A stretch of 7,077 nt of DNA from Promethearchaeota archaeon. GTDB lineage: Archaea; Asgardarchaeota; Lokiarchaeia; Sigyniarchaeales; SOKP01. A program made the position numbers and the translations under genes. Position 1 is the first letter of the stretch; each line of letters begins with the position of its first letter. The notes beneath the pieces were generated by a model. That model made no database searches. It was not told the DNA's origin and was given only the letters and a program-made list of their open reading frames with translations. Positions 1-7,077 of the stretch are shown here, in pieces. The DNA lies in the NCBI GenBank assembly GCA_016840695.1, contig JAEORV010000075.1, positions 1-7,077 of the forward strand, read 5' to 3'.

Positions 1-4
1 ATCA

Positions 5-796
5 ATGAGAACGTTCCCTTCTGATAATAAGAAGATTGTAATTAAAGTAAGCACCCAAATGATAACTGACGGGGTAGCTGAGATTTATCACGATAAAATC
101 AAGGTGCTGGTTATGGAAATAGCCGAATTGATTCGTGAGGGATATATCATAATATTAGTTACTAGTGGTGCGATAGGATGCGGACTTGCCAAGCTTGGAT
201 TAAAAAAACGACCAGATGACTACAAAAAACTTCAAGCTATTGCCTCAGTTGGACAAATTGTTTTAATGAGTCTTTATCAAGAAGAATTTAATAAACAGGG
301 TTTAGATATAGGACAAATTCTCCTCTCTGCTGATGATACTAAAGATTCTGCACGGAGAGCAAACATTAGAAATACTATAGAAGTTCTATTAGAAAAAGGG
401 ATAGTCCCCATTATCAATGAAAATGACACAGTGGCAATTGAAGAATTACGATATGGAGATAACGATAAACTTTCAGGTTTAGTTTCATTGCTCTTATTTG
501 TTGACCTTTTAATAATTTTAACTGATGTTGATGGATTATGCGACAAAAATCCTAATATTCATTCTGATTATCGTGTAATTGGTCAAGTTGATAATATAGA
601 TGATAAATTGGAAGAATTAGTTGAAGATATTGACGGAGGGATAACATTTGGTGGAATGAAGTCCAAAATCGAGACAATTAAAAAATTAACTAATGTAGGA
701 GTCTCGGCTATAATTACTTCGTTCAATAATGATAAGATATTGAGTAAAATATTAAAAGGAGAAGAACTTGGCACGTATTTTGTGGCTCAGAAATAA
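5..796 (+). CDS. proB: Glutamate 5-kinase-like protein (ProB), kinase domain only
   Basis: Predicted cytoplasmic amino-acid kinase that phosphorylates the gamma-carboxyl of glutamate with ATP, the first step of proline synthesis. The 263-residue product carries the family motifs in order: the phosphate-binding Lys14 in IVIKVST, TSGAIG at 53-58, INENDTVA at 137-144, YGDNDKLSG at 150-158, LTDVDGL at 172-178 and GGMKSK at 216-221. It stops just after the GTYF that ends the kinase domain, so the C-terminal PUA domain of the roughly 367-residue E. coli enzyme is absent; kinase-only ProB proteins are known. Two motifs deviate: the usual KVG(T/S) reads KVST, and GTGGM reads TFGGM. The ATG at base 5 leaves nine residues before the first strand, a normal length, but only four bases lie upstream, so an earlier start or a ribosome-binding site cannot be judged. 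The pathway partner proA lies downstream beyond one long gene. The family call is firm; glutamate specificity is less certain. Confidence 0.9.
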   Translation: MRTFPSDNKKIVIKVSTQMITDGVAEIYHDKIKVLVMEIAELIREGYIIILVTSGAIGCGLAKLGLKKRPDDYKKLQAIASVGQIVLMSLYQEEFNKQGLDIGQILLSADDTKDSARRANIRNTIEVLLEKGIVPIINENDTVAIEELRYGDNDKLSGLVSLLLFVDLLIILTDVDGLCDKNPNIHSDYRVIGQVDNIDDKLEELVEDIDGGITFGGMKSKIETIKKLTNVGVSAIITSFNNDKILSKILKGEELGTYFVAQK

Positions 797-882
797 AAAC
801 AAAAAAGAATAATAATTGAAGTAAATAAATACAGAATTAAAGAAACCTAAAAATAATAATTATTAAATCATAAAGTAGCTGG
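797..882 (+). promoter_or_regulatory. Short AT-rich spacer with possible promoter of the giant gene
   Basis: This 86-base spacer separates proB from the giant gene and is almost entirely A/T. A perfect 12-base palindrome, TAATAATTATTA, lies at 854-865, centred about 23 bases before the ATG at 883. That is roughly where an archaeal TATA box would sit for a leaderless transcript starting at or near the ATG. No Shine-Dalgarno sequence precedes 883 and no T-run terminator follows proB. The giant gene could therefore have its own promoter or be read through from proB. The palindrome uses only A and T, so chance occurrence is quite possible. Confidence 0.25.
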
Positions 883-3800
883 ATGTATATGACGTTTTAT
901 CTATCTTGGATGCCTCAATATTCTTATTTTGAAAATAAGATAAAGAATCCTTTTGATTTAGATAACGCAATAGAATATATTCAACAAAAGGTCAAGGAGA
1001 AGGAAATTTTTCAATCTAGTGAAATTTTATTTTGGTCACTATCCTTCTTACATCAGATAGGTAAAATAAAAATAGTCGATAAAAACCTAGTTAAGAAATA
1101 TATATTAACATTACAACACAAGGATGGAGGGTATAAACTTTCAGAGAGTTTTGAAAAACCTGATACTTGGAGCACGTTTTATTGCGTTGCAAGCTTGAAA
1201 ATATTGGAACTCGACGAAATAATTAGCAAAAATGATATAAACTTCGTTTTAAATGCACAAAATCGTGCGTCTGCTAGCGATGGGGGTTTTATTCATTGTC
1301 GACAAAAAGACTGTCATTTCAACTGCAATGCAAAGACTTCCGTAAAATCTAGTTTTTTTGCTCTGTCTACTTTAAAACTTCTCTATAAATTAAATGAGAT
1401 TGAAACGGATCCTTTAATAAAATTCTTGAAAAAAAGCGTCTCAGGACAAAAAGAACAGGTTTTTAAACTTTTCTCACTTGATATTTTAAATCAGCTAGAT
1501 AGCATGGAAAAGAATAAGTTTTTCAAGGAAATTTCTTCATGGCAAATACCTAAAAGTGGTTTTGGCAGCAGTGGAAAATTTCCTTCCATTGATTCTACTT
1601 TTTGGGCACTAATTAGTCTTGGATTATTAGGAGAGTTGAAAAATATTGACTTTGGCGGCGTTATAGAGTTTTTTCAAACAATGCAAAAGAATAATGGAGG
1701 ATTTACTGATCAATATACAAGCATTAGCTCGCAGGAACCAAGTTTATTGAGTACAATTCAAGGGCTCATTTGTATATATTACATATGGGATGTTTTAATT
1801 GATATTATCGAAAGAGAAATATTATCTGAAGCACGTCAATCAGTTAATATCTTTTTCAATCCGATTAGTAAGAAATATGCAGTACCTACTAAATTAGTAG
1901 AAGAGATTGTCAATTGGATGATCACAAACAAGTGGATTGAAGCGGAAATATCAAATAAAAGCGATGTTTTTCAGGAGTATTTTGATCAACAAAACGCTCT
2001 TACTCAAGAAATAATTAGAAAAATCAGAGAAAATGTGAAAAACAATCCAAAACAGAATATCCTTGATATAAATGAATTTAGTAAGCATTTTGAATTTTCT
2101 AACGCATTAGAAAGAGTGAAAATAGTTTTAAATGATTTAATCATAAATAAATTCTTTATTGGCAACATTACCCAATTAAAGAAAAAATTCATACTCGAAA
2201 ACTATTCAATCTTGGATAAACACGTCAAGTTCACTAAACCTGTTTCTTATTCAAAATTAATGAATGAAAAAAAACAGGTAATCGAAGCAAAATCAGAATT
2301 ACTGACCTTAAAAAGCAACATGACCGAATTTCTTCTTAATGCTTCGAGAATTATTCAAAAAATGGTTGTTCAAGAAGAGATCTTTGAAGCAAAAAAGAAA
2401 TTAAACGAATTTCTTGAGTTCACTGCTATCAAGATCCGCAGGTTTGAAGGTTTGATGGAGGAAATTAAATCTTCCCATCAATTTGTTGATTCAAGCAAGT
2501 TAATAAGTAAATTCGAAGAAAAATGGCCTCCGATCAAGGTATTTATAGATGATTCCTTTGCAGATTTCAAAACGAAATACATAGAGCGGATTCAAAAAAA
2601 AGAAAAATTTATCGATGATCGGAATGAGATGGAAAAAGAAAGTGACGACATCAATGTCTTGGAGAATTTATTAGCTACAAATATTGAGAAACTAGAAAGA
2701 TATCAAACTGAAATCCAAAACTTCTTTTTAAAGAATTATACAAATCATAAATCTACTTTAAAATTAATTGAAACTCTTTCAAGCGATATAGAAAAATCTA
2801 ATCTATTAATGAATTCTAATTTTTCTGAAATAGAACCAACCGTGTTATTCGACAAATACAAAAAGGAACTGGAAAAAATAATAATTACATGGACGAATAA
2901 ATGCGAAGAAGCCACCCAATATATTGGTTTTTATAAAAAAAAGGTTGAAAAACGAGAAGAGCTACACAAGAACATCGCTGATAAGGCAGCGGAACTTCAG
3001 AAATTTATCGACATTAATAATGAAAAAATTGCCAAGTTAATAGATAAAAATGAATTTCAAAAAAGTTCGAAATTATTGGATGAAACGACCTCAAAATTTA
3101 ACAATCTCTTAAATAATGAAGATAAAACGCTTAACGAGCAGTTAGATGATATAAATAGGAAAATAATGGAATTTCCTAAGTTTTCTAGCGATATTATAGC
3201 AGATTGGAACCATATGTTAAAAGGAAAAGAAATTAAATGGAACAATGTTGTAGTAGAGCTAAGAAAGAAGCTCCATTCAGATAAAGAGGTAGCTAAGAAA
3301 GAAGAATTGGACTTGAATTTAAAGGATAAAGTGGAAGATATTGGTTGGTTCATGGATAACATGAAAAAAACAGTTCTAAAATTAATTGAAACAAAAAACT
3401 TCTCTGATGCCGAAGATAAAACTAATGACATGTATGCAGAAATTAGTCAAAAAATAAAAGACTGTGATGATGAATTTAAAGAATTCATAAAAAACCAAAA
3501 ACCCGAATTTAAAAAAATTCGAGATACTGTAAAAGATTTAATTGAATTCTGGGACAAGGAGAAAAAACAGTTAAATAATGTATTGAATGACATTAAAAAA
3601 GAATTGGAAAACAAATTAGATATCACGGGATCCATAGATAAAAAAACCGAATTGCATGAATTGATCGAATCTCAAATAGCTGAATTAGAAGAAAGGTTAT
3701 CAAAGTTAGAACCAAAATACGCTAAAATTCTTCATTCTGGAACAAATATTGACGAAATCGAATCAAATTTCCAAGAGGATTTCTCAAAACTCCGTTTATC

Positions 3801-4635
3801 TTTAAAATCACTGGACAATCAAGTAAAAAGCTCAATTAAAACAGTTTCTCGTATATATGAAGAATTTAATAAAATTATCATTGAAGAAGTTGATTTTTGG
3901 AACATATTGAAGCTTGCTACGCAGAAAAAAATAGATGCGGTTCACGATCAAATTGGTGAAGAAATTTTCATCAGGAGAGTTCAGTTCGTTGTCAACGCTT
4001 TTACCGGTAAGAAAATCGAGTTGAGTTATCTGGCAAAAGTAATGAACATGAAACTAAAACCATTAAAATTAAAATTAATTAACCTTATCTCTAATTCTAA
4101 ACTCGTTGGTGAATTAGATTCAAGCACGGATACTTTAATCTTAAAAGAAACCAAAACAGATGACAAATTTATAACCAAAAGGAAAAAAGTTGTAAAAGCT
4201 GAAAGCACTGAAGAAGAAACGGATCCAATTAAAGAAGATCTTTTAAGCTTGCGCTATTTAATGGTCATTCATAATGAAGTAGGGGCAACGGTATATAATA
4301 GAAAACTGGGGACCTGGCAAATGGACTCCGATTTAATTGGCGGATTTTTGACAGCAATGCAAGATTTCAGTTTGGAAATCAAAAAGAAGCGAATACCCAT
4401 CGAGAGAATGGAGTACGAGGAGTTTGAAATCATGTTGGAACAAGGTAAATACATTTTGGTGGCTTTATTTATCGATGGAAAGGGTTCAGATTGGCTGCGT
4501 AAAAAGCAACAGTTATATGTCAAGAAATTTGAGAAATATTTCGAATCAAATTTAAAACACTGGAAAGGAGAGCTTACTTTTTTTAACAACTCTGGCTTCC
4601 TTGTAGATGAAGTTTTTGAATTGTATCGAGTATGA
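883..4635 (+). CDS. Giant multidomain protein: alpha/alpha-toroid, winged helices, spectrin-length helical repeats, longin-like C-terminus
   Basis: Not a recognised family as a whole; 1250 residues, with no signal peptide or clear membrane segment. Residues about 20-305 form prenyltransferase/terpene-cyclase-type toroid repeats, each a helix pair around a Gly-rich turn: QHKDGGY (78-84), ASDGGF (131-136), SGFGSSGKF (225-233) and QKNNGGF (268-274). Catalytic hallmarks are not seen: no DxDD of class II cyclases and no proper Zn triad of protein prenyltransferases. Residues about 306-432 look like two winged helices; 460-1010 are helical, charged and coiled-coil-like with a periodic Trp; 1025-1088 resemble another winged helix; 1090-1118 are a charged linker; 1119-1250 match the longin-like domain common in Asgard proteins. 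A scaffold or trafficking/regulatory role is inferred. The ATG at 883 has no Shine-Dalgarno; in-frame ATGs at 889 and 910 are alternatives. The gene lies between proB and proA, seven bases before the latter. Confidence 0.85.
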   Translation: MYMTFYLSWMPQYSYFENKIKNPFDLDNAIEYIQQKVKEKEIFQSSEILFWSLSFLHQIGKIKIVDKNLVKKYILTLQHKDGGYKLSESFEKPDTWSTFYCVASLKILELDEIISKNDINFVLNAQNRASASDGGFIHCRQKDCHFNCNAKTSVKSSFFALSTLKLLYKLNEIETDPLIKFLKKSVSGQKEQVFKLFSLDILNQLDSMEKNKFFKEISSWQIPKSGFGSSGKFPSIDSTFWALISLGLLGELKNIDFGGVIEFFQTMQKNNGGFTDQYTSISSQEPSLLSTIQGLICIYYIWDVLIDIIEREILSEARQSVNIFFNPISKKYAVPTKLVEEIVNWMITNKWIEAEISNKSDVFQEYFDQQNALTQEIIRKIRENVKNNPKQNILDINEFSKHFEFSNALERVKIVLNDLIINKFFIGNITQLKKKFILENYSILDKHVKFTKPVSYSKLMNEKKQVIEAKSELLTLKSNMTEFLLNASRIIQKMVVQEEIFEAKKKLNEFLEFTAIKIRRFEGLMEEIKSSHQFVDSSKLISKFEEKWPPIKVFIDDSFADFKTKYIERIQKKEKFIDDRNEMEKESDDINVLENLLATNIEKLERYQTEIQNFFLKNYTNHKSTLKLIETLSSDIEKSNLLMNSNFSEIEPTVLFDKYKKELEKIIITWTNKCEEATQYIGFYKKKVEKREELHKNIADKAAELQKFIDINNEKIAKLIDKNEFQKSSKLLDETTSKFNNLLNNEDKTLNEQLDDINRKIMEFPKFSSDIIADWNHMLKGKEIKWNNVVVELRKKLHSDKEVAKKEELDLNLKDKVEDIGWFMDNMKKTVLKLIETKNFSDAEDKTNDMYAEISQKIKDCDDEFKEFIKNQKPEFKKIRDTVKDLIEFWDKEKKQLNNVLNDIKKELENKLDITGSIDKKTELHELIESQIAELEERLSKLEPKYAKILHSGTNIDEIESNFQEDFSKLRLSLKSLDNQVKSSIKTVSRIYEEFNKIIIEEVDFWNILKLATQKKIDAVHDQIGEEIFIRRVQFVVNAFTGKKIELSYLAKVMNMKLKPLKLKLINLISNSKLVGELDSSTDTLILKETKTDDKFITKRKKVVKAESTEEETDPIKEDLLSLRYLMVIHNEVGATVYNRKLGTWQMDSDLIGGFLTAMQDFSLEIKKKRIPIERMEYEEFEIMLEQGKYILVALFIDGKGSDWLRKKQQLYVKKFEKYFESNLKHWKGELTFFNNSGFLVDEVFELYRV
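940..1797 (+). other. Alpha/alpha-toroid (prenyltransferase/squalene-cyclase-like) domain of the giant protein
   Basis: This segment covers residues 20-305. It holds about five to six helix pairs with a Gly-rich loop between helices and an aromatic/small-residue helix after it, for example TWSTFYCVASLKIL at 95-108, KSSFFALSTLKLL at 155-167 and DSTFWALISLGLL at 237-249. This is the pattern of the prenyltransferase beta subunit and squalene/terpene cyclase repeat. In the final repeat the His expected in active protein prenyltransferases (usually near YHT) is replaced by SLLSTIQGL, so catalysis of that type is unlikely. One repeat carries a Cys/His cluster at 138-148. The domain is probably a binding module; its ligand is unknown. 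Confidence 0.7.
2362..3912 (+). repeat. Five degenerate tandem helical repeats of spectrin-like length, protein level
   Basis: Within the helical part of the giant protein, Trp recurs at residues 548, 670, 775, 890 and 1006 (spacings 122, 105, 115 and 116). About 47-51 residues before each Trp lies a related helix with an aromatic or aliphatic residue followed by small and hydrophobic positions: IFEAKKKL (F501), NYTNHKSTL (Y619), EFQKSSKLL (F725), NFSDAEDKT (F840) and NIDEIESNF (I956). Both ladders keep step, which supports a true tandem duplication that has since diverged. The length and the single Trp per unit recall spectrin repeats, but homology is not claimed. Trp786 and Trp822 fall outside the ladder. 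The DNA itself is not visibly repetitive. Confidence 0.5.
3955..4146 (+). other. Probable winged-helix domain of the giant protein
   Basis: Residues about 1025-1088. A helix (RRVQFVVNAFTG) is followed by IELSYLAKVMN, a second helix, then LKLKLINLISNSKLVGELD and a strand-like TLIL. This order (helix, 'i.l..lA', helix, recognition-like helix ending in LI.n.kl.G.ld, wing) is typical of winged helices, including the versions used for protein-protein contact in PCI and cullin proteins. The same signature, ending LIINKFFIGNI, appears at residues 374-430. DNA binding and protein binding cannot be told apart from the sequence. Confidence 0.5.
4237..4632 (+). other. Longin-like domain at the C-terminus of the giant protein
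   Basis: Residues 1119-1250. The segment reads as strand (YLMVIHNEVG), strand (ATVYNRKLG), then a helix beginning DSDLIGGFLTAMQDFSLEI, strands MEYEEFEIMLEQG and YILVALFIDG, a long helix LRKKQQLYVKKFEKYF, and a final amphipathic helix (VDEVFELY). The LIsGFL.A...F.eEI helix, then the 'e...f.i.leegky...al...g' hairpin, is the pattern of longin-like domains repeatedly found in Asgard archaea. In eukaryotes longin and roadblock folds act in vesicle trafficking and small-GTPase regulation. A GTPase-related role here is an inference from that family knowledge. Confidence 0.6.
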
Positions 4636-4638
4636 GGT
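4634..4638 (+). promoter_or_regulatory. Shine-Dalgarno sequence of proA overlapping the stop codon of the giant gene
   Basis: GAGGT, four bases before the ATG at 4643, shares two bases with the TGA stop (4633-4635) of the upstream gene. It is the only convincing ribosome-binding site in the window. It fixes the proA start at 4643 rather than the in-frame ATG at 4607, which lies inside the giant gene. The arrangement implies translation of proA coupled to that of the giant gene. Confidence 0.75.
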
Positions 4639-4642
4639 TATT

Positions 4643-5899
4643 ATGCCAATCGAAGAAGAGATGAAAGAAATTGGAGAAAATGCCCAGAAAGCGGCTTTTA
4701 TTTTAAAAAACGTTGATTCAACTAAAAAAAATAACGCTCTATTGCGAATGGCTGATGATCTAGAAAAAAAAGCAGAGGAAATCGTTGAATCTAACAAAAA
4801 AGATTTAGAAAACGCAAAAGTAAACAATTTAGAGCAAGCTAAAATAGATAGGTTGGTATTAAATCCAGAAAAAATTCATAAAATTGCACAAGGATTGCGT
4901 GATATTGCAGCACTTCCAGACCCAATTAATGAAATAATTTCAAAGTGGCGTAGGCCAAACGGCATGGATATTTGTTTGGTAAGAGTACCATTAGGTGTTA
5001 TTGGAATAATTTACGAATCTCGTCCAAACGTAACTGCTGACGCTGCCGGATTATGTTTAAAGGCAGGCAACGCCATAGTTTTAAGAGGAGGTAGTGAAGC
5101 AATTAATTCTAATGTAATAATTGCGGATATTCTTCATGATGCTGCGGTTAAGGAAGGACTCCCGAAAAATTGTATTCAGATTATAAGGGATACGAATAGA
5201 GAGTATGTTGGTGCAATGCTCAAGTTAAAAGACTATATCGATGTAATTATCCCGAGAGGAGGTGAAGAGTTAATTCAAAGAGTTATTCAAAACTCAATGG
5301 TGCCAACAATAGAGACGGGAATTGGAATTGTTAGCCTCTTTGTGAATCACGACGCCGATTTGGAAATGGCAGAAAAAATAATCATCAATTCTAAATGCTC
5401 CTATCCTGCCGTCTGTAACGCATTAGATAAACTACTTGTTCACGAACAAATTAAAGATTCATTTATTCATTCCATAGTACGATCGTTAAGAAATAATGGG
5501 GTAGAAGTAAGGGGTTGTAGGATCACTCAAGAACTCGTACCTGATGTAATTCCCGCAACAGAAGAAGATTGGGGCGCAGAATATTTATCTTTAAAAATTT
5601 GCCTCCGGGTTGTCAAGGATATAGATGAAGCGATTACCATCATAACTAAATACGATTCTAAACATACGGAATCCATCCTTACTAAAAGTAAAGTAGATTC
5701 AGAAAAGTTCCTATATGAAGTTGACGCTGCTGCTGTTTACGTTAACGCTGCAACTCGATTAACAGATGGTGGTGTTTTTGGTTTAGGTGCCGAGATTGGA
5801 ATATCTACACAAAAATTACACGCAAGAGGTCCAATGGGCGTTAACCAACTCACATCAACGAAATATATTATTCATGGAAGTGGACAAATCCGAGAATAG
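4643..5899 (+). CDS. proA: Gamma-glutamyl phosphate reductase (ProA; glutamate-5-semialdehyde dehydrogenase)
   Basis: NADPH-dependent cytoplasmic enzyme that reduces gamma-glutamyl phosphate, the ProB product, to glutamate 5-semialdehyde, which cyclises towards proline. From the ATG at 4643 the product has 418 residues, matching the usual length (E. coli 417); an in-frame ATG at 4607 would add 12 residues overlapping the giant gene and lacks a ribosome-binding site. Family motifs are clear: YESRPNVTADAA (124-135), LRGGSEA (147-153), IPRGG (203-207), VPTIETG (220-226), the catalytic Cys258 in YPAVCNALDKLLVH, and the signature GAEIGISTQKLHARGPMG (382-399). Near the active site two usual elements differ: the GNCH after VIETGVG reads GIVS (228-231), and the QRP before the catalytic Cys reads SYP (253-255). 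The gene follows the giant gene by seven bases, so co-transcription and coupling are expected. The family call is firm; altered substrate preference is only a possibility. Confidence 0.95.
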   Translation: MPIEEEMKEIGENAQKAAFILKNVDSTKKNNALLRMADDLEKKAEEIVESNKKDLENAKVNNLEQAKIDRLVLNPEKIHKIAQGLRDIAALPDPINEIISKWRRPNGMDICLVRVPLGVIGIIYESRPNVTADAAGLCLKAGNAIVLRGGSEAINSNVIIADILHDAAVKEGLPKNCIQIIRDTNREYVGAMLKLKDYIDVIIPRGGEELIQRVIQNSMVPTIETGIGIVSLFVNHDADLEMAEKIIINSKCSYPAVCNALDKLLVHEQIKDSFIHSIVRSLRNNGVEVRGCRITQELVPDVIPATEEDWGAEYLSLKICLRVVKDIDEAITIITKYDSKHTESILTKSKVDSEKFLYEVDAAAVYVNAATRLTDGGVFGLGAEIGISTQKLHARGPMGVNQLTSTKYIIHGSGQIRE

Positions 5900-5906
5900 A
5901 ATTAAC

Positions 5907-5944
5907 AACCTTCATTATTAAGGTTTTGATGCTTTCGGTTTTTT
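5907..5944 (+). terminator. Probable transcription terminator after proA
   Basis: A perfect 6-base inverted repeat, AACCTT (5907-5912) and AAGGTT (5920-5925) with a 7-base loop, lies in the short gap between the convergent proA and ubiquitin-like genes. It is followed on the plus strand by TTTT (5924-5927) and by a run of six T at 5939-5944. Archaeal termination mainly needs T-tracts, so the plus-strand call is reasonable. No comparable T-run is seen for the minus-strand gene, although the hairpin is symmetrical. The repeat overlaps the last codons of the minus-strand gene. Confidence 0.45.
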
Positions 5945-6871
5945 GTGGAACTCCAACAACACTTTTGAATCCTCGATGTTCTCTTTTAAAACTACATAAT
6001 CAAATGGTTTAAGATATTCAATCATGAAATATTTAAAAAAAACTGAGAAATTCTGTCCTAGTTGATGATCTCCATATAGAATAAACCATCCTGCCATGCT
6101 TAAAGGGATGATTAATACATCCTCTCCATTTTTAATCTTATAATCTTTTAGTTGCCTCATTTCATCTAATGTAACCCCTCCCGCTGAAAGATGGAAATTT
6201 AAAGGATTCAAGCCATATAAATTACCTATAGTTTCTTTAATATCGCTAATTATATTCCCCGTATTGATGGTAAGCTTTTGCTTCTTTTCTCCGGGTCCGA
6301 TTGTTGAAATAAAGTAGAGAATTACTTTTTCTCCCTCTGGGGGGTTTTTTCTTCCAGGAGTTTTGGATTTTATCTTCCACACATTTTCGCTCACTTGCTT
6401 GAACGAGCCTTCGCTTTCATCCTCCCCATCCACAATTACATTTCCTTCAATCAAATCTTCCTGGGTCTCCTCATCCTCTCCTGATTCAACGAAAACTTCA
6501 TCGCTTAATTCAACTCTGTTTAAAAGCCCCTTTAATTCCATATTCTCTTCTTGGAGCACTATGATCTCATTCATTAATTTTTCTGTTATTTCTTTTGCCA
6601 AGTTTTCTGAAAAGATATTACTATTTTCAATTTCAATGATTTCTACAGCGCGAATATCCAAATTTGCATCTATGTATAAAACTGTAAGCAATTCTTCTAA
6701 TTTTTCCTCTAAAGAGTGCAGAAAAACATAAGGAAATGGATATCTTTCTTTGTTCTCACTTAATGATCTTGAAAGCTCTACAGTATGAGTCGTTTGACAT
6801 TTAGGACAGTGATAAATCTTTGATACCGATTCATTTTCTTGACTTTTAGGCTCTTGAGAATCTTCGGACAT
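5918..6871 (-). CDS. Protein with N-terminal CxxC domain, coiled coil and internal ubiquitin-like domain
   Basis: A 317-residue soluble protein of unknown specific function. Residues 18-80 begin with YHCPKC (Cys22, Cys25) and His29, then run through YPFPYVFLHS to LYIDANLDIRAVE; this looks like a zinc-knuckle-like module seen in Asgard proteins, though only one CxxC is present. Residues 88-122 are a predicted coiled coil, 123-157 a strongly acidic linker. Residues 181-258 are a ubiquitin-like beta-grasp: strand VILYFIS, strand QKLTIN, helix ISDIKETIGNLY, then LSAGGVTLDEMRQLKDYKI, which aligns with the ubiquitin segment IFAGKQLEDGRTLSDYNI, and a last strand VLIIPL. The fold ends in SMAGW, not in a free Gly-Gly, and a further 56 residues follow, so this is a ubiquitin-domain protein rather than a conjugated modifier. 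The start at 6871 has no Shine-Dalgarno; a leaderless mRNA is likely. It converges on proA, 18 bases from its end. Confidence 0.85.
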   Translation of the reverse strand: MSEDSQEPKSQENESVSKIYHCPKCQTTHTVELSRSLSENKERYPFPYVFLHSLEEKLEELLTVLYIDANLDIRAVEIIEIENSNIFSENLAKEITEKLMNEIIVLQEENMELKGLLNRVELSDEVFVESGEDEETQEDLIEGNVIVDGEDESEGSFKQVSENVWKIKSKTPGRKNPPEGEKVILYFISTIGPGEKKQKLTINTGNIISDIKETIGNLYGLNPLNFHLSAGGVTLDEMRQLKDYKIKNGEDVLIIPLSMAGWFILYGDHQLGQNFSVFFKYFMIEYLKPFDYVVLKENIEDSKVLLEFHKKPKASKP

Positions 6872-7016
6872 GTTATTTCAAGCAAGTTAATAGTAATGAT
6901 AATTAATAATCTGGGTATAACATAAGTGTGGGTTTGTTATTTAAATTCCTTTGCGTTAACAAGATATATTTGATAATAATAAAATAAAAAACTAAGAATT
7001 CATTTTTCTTGCTTAT
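6872..7016. promoter_or_regulatory. Divergent promoter region between the ubiquitin-like gene and the exporter gene
   Basis: These 145 AT-rich bases must hold promoters for both flanking genes, since they point away from each other. For the minus-strand gene, the minus-strand reading of 6897-6912 gives ATTATTAATTATC, placed about 30 bases before the ATG as a TATA box would be for a nearly leaderless mRNA. For the plus-strand gene, ATATATTT at 6964-6971, after AACAA, is a possible TATA box. A 6-base inverted repeat, ATAACA (6917-6922) and TGTTAT (6935-6940) spaced by 12, could be an operator. Individual sites are weak; the regional assignment follows from gene orientation. Confidence 0.4.
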
Positions 7017-7077
7017 ATGATAGATATTTTTTTTATATCCTTTTTAGTAGCCCTCACTGGAGCCCTATCTCCTGGAC
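7017..7077 (+). CDS. LysE/RhtB-family amino-acid exporter, N-terminal fragment cut by the window edge
   Basis: Only the first 20 codons are present. They begin MIDIFFISFLVALTG and continue to ALSPG, a hydrophobic first membrane helix followed by the small-residue/Ser-Pro-Gly turn that marks the N-terminus of LysE-type transporters (typically 'G...LsPGP'). Members export amino acids or related solutes through the cytoplasmic membrane. No Shine-Dalgarno precedes the ATG, consistent with leaderless initiation or a short leader. The reading frame is open to the end of the window. With so little sequence the family call is tentative and the substrate cannot be inferred; nearness to proline genes is suggestive only. 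Confidence 0.6.
   Translation, partial: MIDIFFISFLVALTGALSPG

Follow-up and report, generated by a model that had tools for sequence, protein, structure and literature searches.

The window studied here, a 7,077-nucleotide stretch of the genome of a Promethearchaeota archaeon of the Asgard class Lokiarchaeia (assembly GCA_016840695.1, contig JAEORV010000075.1, positions 1 to 7,077), carries an open reading frame (ORF) of 1250 amino acids in which a predicted ring resembling the beta subunit of RabGGTase is followed by predicted winged helices, a charged helical rod and a predicted C-terminal longin domain. This protein is likely a scaffold docked to a molecular switch and not an enzyme that attaches lipids. 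Its parts, and the two genes that flank it, are as follows.

883..4635, forward strand: whole ORF, 1250 amino acids (ORF reading; 21 similarly built relatives, one labelled partial)
940..1833, forward strand: RabGGTase-beta-like alpha-alpha toroid, residues 20-317 (Pfam PF00432; predicted model; Foldseek and VIA-align; sequence matches to solved RabGGTase beta)
1294..1326, forward strand: HC-x4-C-x3-C loop motif, a candidate metal site, residues 138-148 (conservation counts)
1585..1593, forward strand: places of two RabGGTase-beta zinc ligands, here S and D, residues 235-237 (gapless alignment stretch; columns counted)
1750..1752, forward strand: place of the third zinc ligand, here S, residue 290 (register inferred from VIA-align end points; column counted)
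1846..1956, forward strand: first winged helix, residues 322-358 (order of helices and strands in the model, read from the model alone)
1996..2232, forward strand: second winged helix, residues 372-450, with the conserved block FSKxFxFSNALERV (model, conservation, profile overlap in relatives)
2260..4002, forward strand: charged helical rod with Trp-anchored repeats, residues 460-1040 (repeat reading; helix 986-1038 modelled)
4012..4152, forward strand: PCI-type winged helix, residues 1044-1090 (Pfam, 28.0 bits against a cut-off of 22; fold matches)
4225..4632, forward strand: longin domain, residues 1115-1250 (predicted model, fold matches, sequence kinship)
5..796, forward strand: proB (glutamate 5-kinase), upstream neighbour, outside the finding (NCBIfam proB, 257.5 bits against a cut-off of 186)
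4643..5899, forward strand: proA, downstream neighbour (NCBIfam; in-frame ATGs; a 418-residue relative recognised by eye)

A search of 5.8 billion proteins returned 23 matches to the ORF, namely its own cluster (P0001), the 21 relatives and P0023, which has the C-terminus alone in common with the window protein. The relatives are 42-87% identical to P0001 in alignment A1 (22 rows, P0001 first) and 38-87% identical in local alignments; P0001 carries Gly at residue 129 where the window ORF has Ala, and the numbering is the same. The ORF was assigned to no NCBIfam family. With 558 contigs the assembly is fragmented, and an ORF created by misassembly or by fusion of neighbouring genes was considered and rejected: no support for it was found, and the identical build recurs in the 21 relatives, some on contigs of 411,772, 146,710 and 1,484,684 bases, which leaves a chimera a negligible chance. 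The one continuous protein proposed in a preliminary description of this DNA is upheld by the same relatives.

The predicted model of residues 20-317 and its fold matches have the alpha-alpha toroid fold of protein prenyltransferase beta subunits, and these residues also match solved RabGGTase beta by sequence. Toroid repeats in the N-terminal ~300 residues had been read from the sequence, and PF00432, the model and its Foldseek and VIA-align matches bear this out. The toroid had been called terpene-cyclase-type, a label that should read protein-prenyltransferase-beta-type. DxDD is the acid motif of class II terpene cyclases; direct reading of residues 1-317 found it missing, and together with the Foldseek ranking this led us to reject a terpene cyclase identity. 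No terpene cyclase stood among the 50 VIA-align rows listed, which by the tool's own note is not an exclusion. Two tryptophans, W51 (kept in 20 of 22 rows, the other two having a Tyr and a gap) and W241 (kept in all 22), correspond in the alignment to tryptophans of RabGGTase beta that we take to line the lipid pocket of the enzyme, and their conservation may be a hint of such a pocket here.

The zinc ligands of rat RabGGTase beta, presumably D238, C240 and H290, have no counterpart in this ring. All 22 rows of A1 lack the residues of the enzyme at the three aligned places, the first being S or T, the second mixed (E, D, K, N, T, H, G, P) and the third S, T, N or D. The same holds with little exception for a set of ten divergent ring rows (A4, identity down to 19%), where D stands at the first place in one row and C or H at the other two in none. 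The ring has an invariant motif instead: H138, C139, C144 and C148 are kept in 22/22 rows of A1 and the same four places in 10/10 rows of A4. In 31 further ORFs, mainly from loci found with a family profile that itself includes the motif plus L003, and some of them also rows of A4, HCx4C is present throughout and the last Cys in 24; one of the seven ORFs without it ends at a contig edge. Thirty loci from other PF00432 families were read for HCx4Cx3C, and none of their ORFs showed it. A loose zinc-type pattern, Asp/Glu-x-Cys-aromatic, occurs in five ORFs among those of these 30 Asgard toroid loci, as an unaligned pattern match. In the predicted model a loop connecting toroid helices carries the HCx4Cx3C motif, which may bind a metal.

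The partners of a prenyltransferase were also sought. PPTA, the alpha subunit, exceeded its curated cut-off in none of 21 genomes, with weaker matches in nine, in assemblies that are incomplete and for repeats that diverge; GDI/REP likewise exceeded its cut-off in none of the 21, with weaker matches in two. In 14 control genomes, PPTA matched in two, neither over the cut-off, and GDI in two, both over it. The C-termini of candidate substrates were read from 140 Ras-family matches in two genomes, for which 30 loci were fetched; a loose motif filter gave 26 rows to read, and these represent 23 different ORFs, two of which run off the locus, leaving 21 true C-termini. None of these 21 GTPase ORFs with their own stop has Cys in the last five residues, in agreement with a 2016 study (PMC4915359), in the part of it available to us, in which C-terminal Cys was not found in archaeal Rab-like proteins. 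Since the zinc-ligand places are not kept and neither PPTA nor GDI/REP is ever over its cut-off, prenylation by the window protein appears unlikely, and the Cys-less GTPase ends further lower the case for an active prenyltransferase.

At the other end of the protein, residues 1115-1250 show the longin strand order beta2-alpha-beta3-alpha2 in a predicted model of fair confidence, whose top Foldseek matches are AP sigma subunits. The longin family is related by sequence to AP-4 sigma (E 5e-4) and MglB (E 5e-3), and the relative L109 lies above the Pfam cut-off for the FUZ/MON1/HPS1 longin. The longin-like C-terminus read earlier from the sequence is supported by both predicted fold and kinship. 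Matches to Ras- and Arf-type GTPases were found in 14 of 14 scanned proteins of 293-347 amino acids that bear the same longin, from Loki, Jord, Sigyn and other records; in the first of them the longin spans residues 6-128 and the GTPase 134-261. These proteins were picked by length, and two in the same range were left out, L046 for a weak match and L003 as a piece of a 457-residue gene. The profile of the window family reaches three of the 14 (L063, 2e-17; L065, 1e-16; L064, 4e-15). Fusion to a GTPase is one architecture among many in this longin family, which is widespread: a 440-residue query, counted by the rows listed through its longin part, matched 190 of 195 genomes. The genome G054 holds a very large set, with at least 144 longin-profile matches (150 of 199 candidates scored) and 103 Ras-family matches. 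In long proteins (L040:5573-8929, L053:2-3199 and L024:655-2643) the same longin is preceded by matches to Ig-like or macroglobulin-like domains (Big_1, MG4), all of them below cut-off.

The middle of the protein links the ring to the longin. The preliminary description had seen winged helices and spectrin-length repeats here. Two winged helices follow the ring in the model, the first at a predicted local distance difference test (pLDDT) score of about 90, and the second overlaps the PCI-type winged-helix profile of the family in L036, L037 and L038 (E 2e-3 to 1e-4). A third, recognised by Pfam and by fold as PCI-type, comes after the rod, so that the winged-helix half of a PCI domain is present with a helical rod before it. 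The repeats of the rod measure 104-122 residues and are anchored at W548, W670, W775 or W786, W890 and W1006; the third anchor is either of two tryptophans, and some pairs of repeats show no recognisable likeness. The ~106-residue tandem units with a conserved Trp that define spectrin repeats are matched in length and in the Trp, but the Pfam spectrin profile gave no match at E up to 1. The rod would be a chain of three-helix bundles.

The distribution of these parts was followed in a phylum sample of 195 genomes, 57 from the class of the window and 138 from outside it. The profile of the ring family with the HC loop matched 51 of the 57 class genomes, all at 2.3e-24 or better. Matches outside the class came from 10 of 138 genomes, all at 1.2e-17 or weaker; the one that was read (L083) is without the motif, and we take the ten for other toroids. 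Rings that carry the HC loop form a family belonging to the window's class. Most whole copies have 1430-1511 amino acids, and several copies stop at the edge of a contig. Proteins that also bear the longin are less common: among the 58 relatives listed, they are seen at least in G000, G001 (truncated where its contig ends), G002, G052 and G054. Directly behind the full-length gene of G054 lies a tandem copy of 708 amino acids (L036:10496-12619) with rod, PCI-type winged helix and longin and without the ring.

PF00432 toroids of any kind occur in 150 of the 195 phylum genomes and in none of the 14 controls. Some are large: proteins of 1011 and 1064 amino acids (L072:583-3615 and L089:514-3705) combine several toroid matches with a C-terminal ABC-transporter ATPase domain (PF00005, E 7e-28 and 2.5e-28, respectively), and many frames of similar length elsewhere have PF00432 matches. 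Frames of 760-1630 amino acids with many toroid matches are also seen in other Asgard families (G086:C2, G199:C584, G140:C275, G072:C135), at least two of them close together per contig.

Of 57 candidate toroids, 56 entered a tree and one was left out for its length; the 25 rod proteins with a longin fall into a single clade there, with support of 100/97. A second fusion of ring and longin was found in L083, a 440-residue ORF of another Asgard family in which a longin (4e-11) precedes a toroid whose best solved relative is RabGGTase beta (2e-17). Because L083 is separated from the rod family at 100/97, the ring-longin label needs two changes on the tree; the starred branches force the same number, and none of 500 shuffles was as low. 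A wider search for this 440-residue longin-toroid fusion recovered its own database copy only, with scoring confined to the candidates that share most words, so that rarer relatives are possible.

The ring and rod also occur in a paralog that lacks the longin: in none of 34 paralog loci read (L192-L225, representative L194) did the ring-rod gene itself give a longin match, its C-terminal end lying beyond the fetched stretch in L192 and L201. The loci comprise a set of 14, of which 11 were chosen for a toroid-ABC gene on the contig, and a set of 20 taken regardless of neighbours, for five of which such a gene was already known; some stretches are cut by contig ends. In the genus of the window, a longin gene of 457-460 amino acids, whose product has a TPR match below cut-off (L005), lies directly upstream of the paralog on the same strand in 3/3 genomes, with gaps of about 196, 305 and 123 bases; these genomes belong to one genus and are not independent. 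A second longin gene (168-169 amino acids) abuts the other end of the paralog in convergent orientation in both genomes where the contig continues. As a weaker link, 10 of the 14 loci have a more distant longin gene of 270 residues (longin270) in the stretch fetched, with the same orientation as the paralog. The paralog is often part of a same-strand cluster with a Cys-rich iron-sulfur (Fe-S) protein and a GlcD-like FAD oxidase, less often with the 270-residue longin and the toroid-ABC ATPase gene. The set of 14 has the Fe-S gene in 12 loci and the oxidase gene in 12.

The neighbourhood of the window gene itself is uninformative. The proA frame is open from 4607 to 5899, and translation probably starts at 4643 rather than 4607, which gives no overlap with the 1250-residue ORF. 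By eye, the G002 copy lies beside relatives of proB and proA and the G001 copy near a proA relative, with order or strand changed. Further downstream in the window, a 317-residue protein (5918-6871, reverse strand) has an N-terminal stretch of Cys pairs that weakly matches a zinc ribbon, and its residues 196-253 weakly match the ubiquitin fold (PF00240, E 0.0012, below cut-off).

Our favoured, though tentative, reading is that the protein is a long scaffold or tether docked to a GTPase, with a ring that would bind, but not transfer, an isoprenoid lipid or a peptide. The longin, a predicted fold, would either dock a Ras- or Arf-type GTPase or pair with the longin of a protein that fuses longin and GTPase, the rod would span distance and give reach, and the winged helices would assemble the protein with itself or with partners; the ring, whose fold is likewise predicted and whose zinc ligands are lost, would hold its isoprenoid lipid or peptide. 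Several observations weigh against this. The model of the longin reaches only fair confidence (mean pLDDT 70.7, predicted template-modelling score 0.44), and no GTPase match was found in 18 scanned longin-bearing proteins of other sizes (the window protein, two of L036 and L039, L005, L083, L040, L002, nine further proteins and L201). Longin genes are common, with 19 to at least 144 matches per genome in six genomes, so that adjacency alone is weak evidence; longin270 is near the paralog on the same strand in only 6 of the 20 loci not picked for it, and the most constant neighbours there, the Fe-S protein (17/20) and the FAD oxidase (13/20), point elsewhere. The window gene is flanked by proB and proA, and no GTPase was recognised by eye among the listed neighbours of other copies. 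L083 is the sole example of its fusion, and the program calls the placement of its long branch unsure. The GTPase-related tail of the preliminary description gains support: the longin family is joined to Ras- and Arf-type GTPases throughout one size class and in none of the proteins of other sizes, a division that lowered the weight we give to the GTPase-docked scaffold and raised that of a scaffold without a GTPase. In this latter, somewhat unlikely, alternative the ring is a platform for peptides or proteins, the whole is a structural part of a large complex with neither lipid nor GTPase, and the winged helices are likened to those of the proteasome lid, the COP9 signalosome or UFL1/DDRGK1. 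The PCI-type winged helix (Pfam and fold), the long rod, the use of longins as pure assembly modules, as in the AP sigma subunits, and the 0/18 count all agree with it, and the 14/14 GTPase fusions of the same longin family disagree.

Other readings were given less weight. Of the 34 paralog loci, 29 have the Fe-S gene and 25 the FAD-oxidase gene on the strand of the paralog, which would suit a metabolic or envelope role for the superfamily beside Fe-S, GlcD-like FAD oxidase and toroid-ABC genes, with the longin-bearing form as a side branch. Since 11 of the 34 loci were chosen for a toroid-ABC gene on the same contig, and such a neighbourhood was not recognised by eye around the window gene or its orthologues, we regard this role as improbable. 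Slightly more doubtful still is a catalytic ring in which the HCx4Cx3C loop serves as a new metal centre and replaces the lost zinc site. The constancy of the H138, C139 and C144 places across the 22, 10 and 31 rows (overlapping sets) and their position between toroid helices in the model would fit such a centre; the fourth ligand was not found in seven of the 31 ORFs, including the one at a contig edge; this speaks against it, as do the failure of any alpha-subunit match to exceed its cut-off and the GTPase ends without Cys in the residues read. Returning to the GTPase-docked scaffold, an extended and decidedly speculative version, unlikely as it stands, is that a RabGGTase-beta-type ring joined a longin/Ras-GTPase module twice independently in Asgard archaea before GTPases were lipidated, and that the putative grip of the ring is on the geranylgeranyl-derived archaeal membrane lipid. 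If this were true, a scaffold rather than a lipid tail would bring the GTPase to the membrane, and the eukaryotic Rab prenylation enzyme would be related to a ring of this lipid-gripping kind, having acquired zinc and catalysis.

Two questions are open: by what route the GTPases of Asgard archaea come to membranes when they have no lipid tail, and from where the machinery for Rab prenylation came. Class-wide RabGGTase-beta-like rings, with one branch joined to a longin family whose other members include fusions to Ras-type GTPases, make both testable on defined proteins. The parts of the protein are known, and in the available portions of the literature searched, which excluded subscription papers and preprints, the ring-rod-longin combination is not described. 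In the sections seen of earlier surveys, Table 1 of PMC4917890 records for Lokiarchaeum that prenyltransferases were not found, and BLAST found no homologue of REP or of a RabGGTase subunit (PMC10933270). Surkont and Pereira-Leal (2016; PMC4915359) noted beta-subunit-like folds in archaea; unlike the window protein, none of the prenyltransferase-beta-fold proteins in the part of that study available to us is described as having the ring-rod-longin architecture.

The nearest known counterpart of the ring is RabGGTase beta (RABGGTB, also a subunit of GGTase-III). In contrast to that enzyme, the window protein is without the three zinc ligands at the aligned places and has the extra HCx4Cx3C loop, and its ring is fused to a rod, winged helices and a longin and has no PPTA partner over the cut-off. 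The rod shares a repeat length of 104-122 residues and an anchoring Trp with spectrin-type rods, but not the Pfam match. Longins and roadblock domains serve as platforms for the regulation of GTPases in MglB, TRAPPC1/4, Mon1-Ccz1 and Fuzzy-Inturned, and occur as AP sigma; here the longin instead ends a rod that begins with a prenyltransferase-like ring. The longin-GTPase proteins of the Asgard archaeon MK-D1, as reported in the portion seen of PMC10933270 and not compared with ours by sequence, likewise fuse a longin to a Ras/Arf GTPase, whereas the longin of the window sits on a protein of ring and rod.
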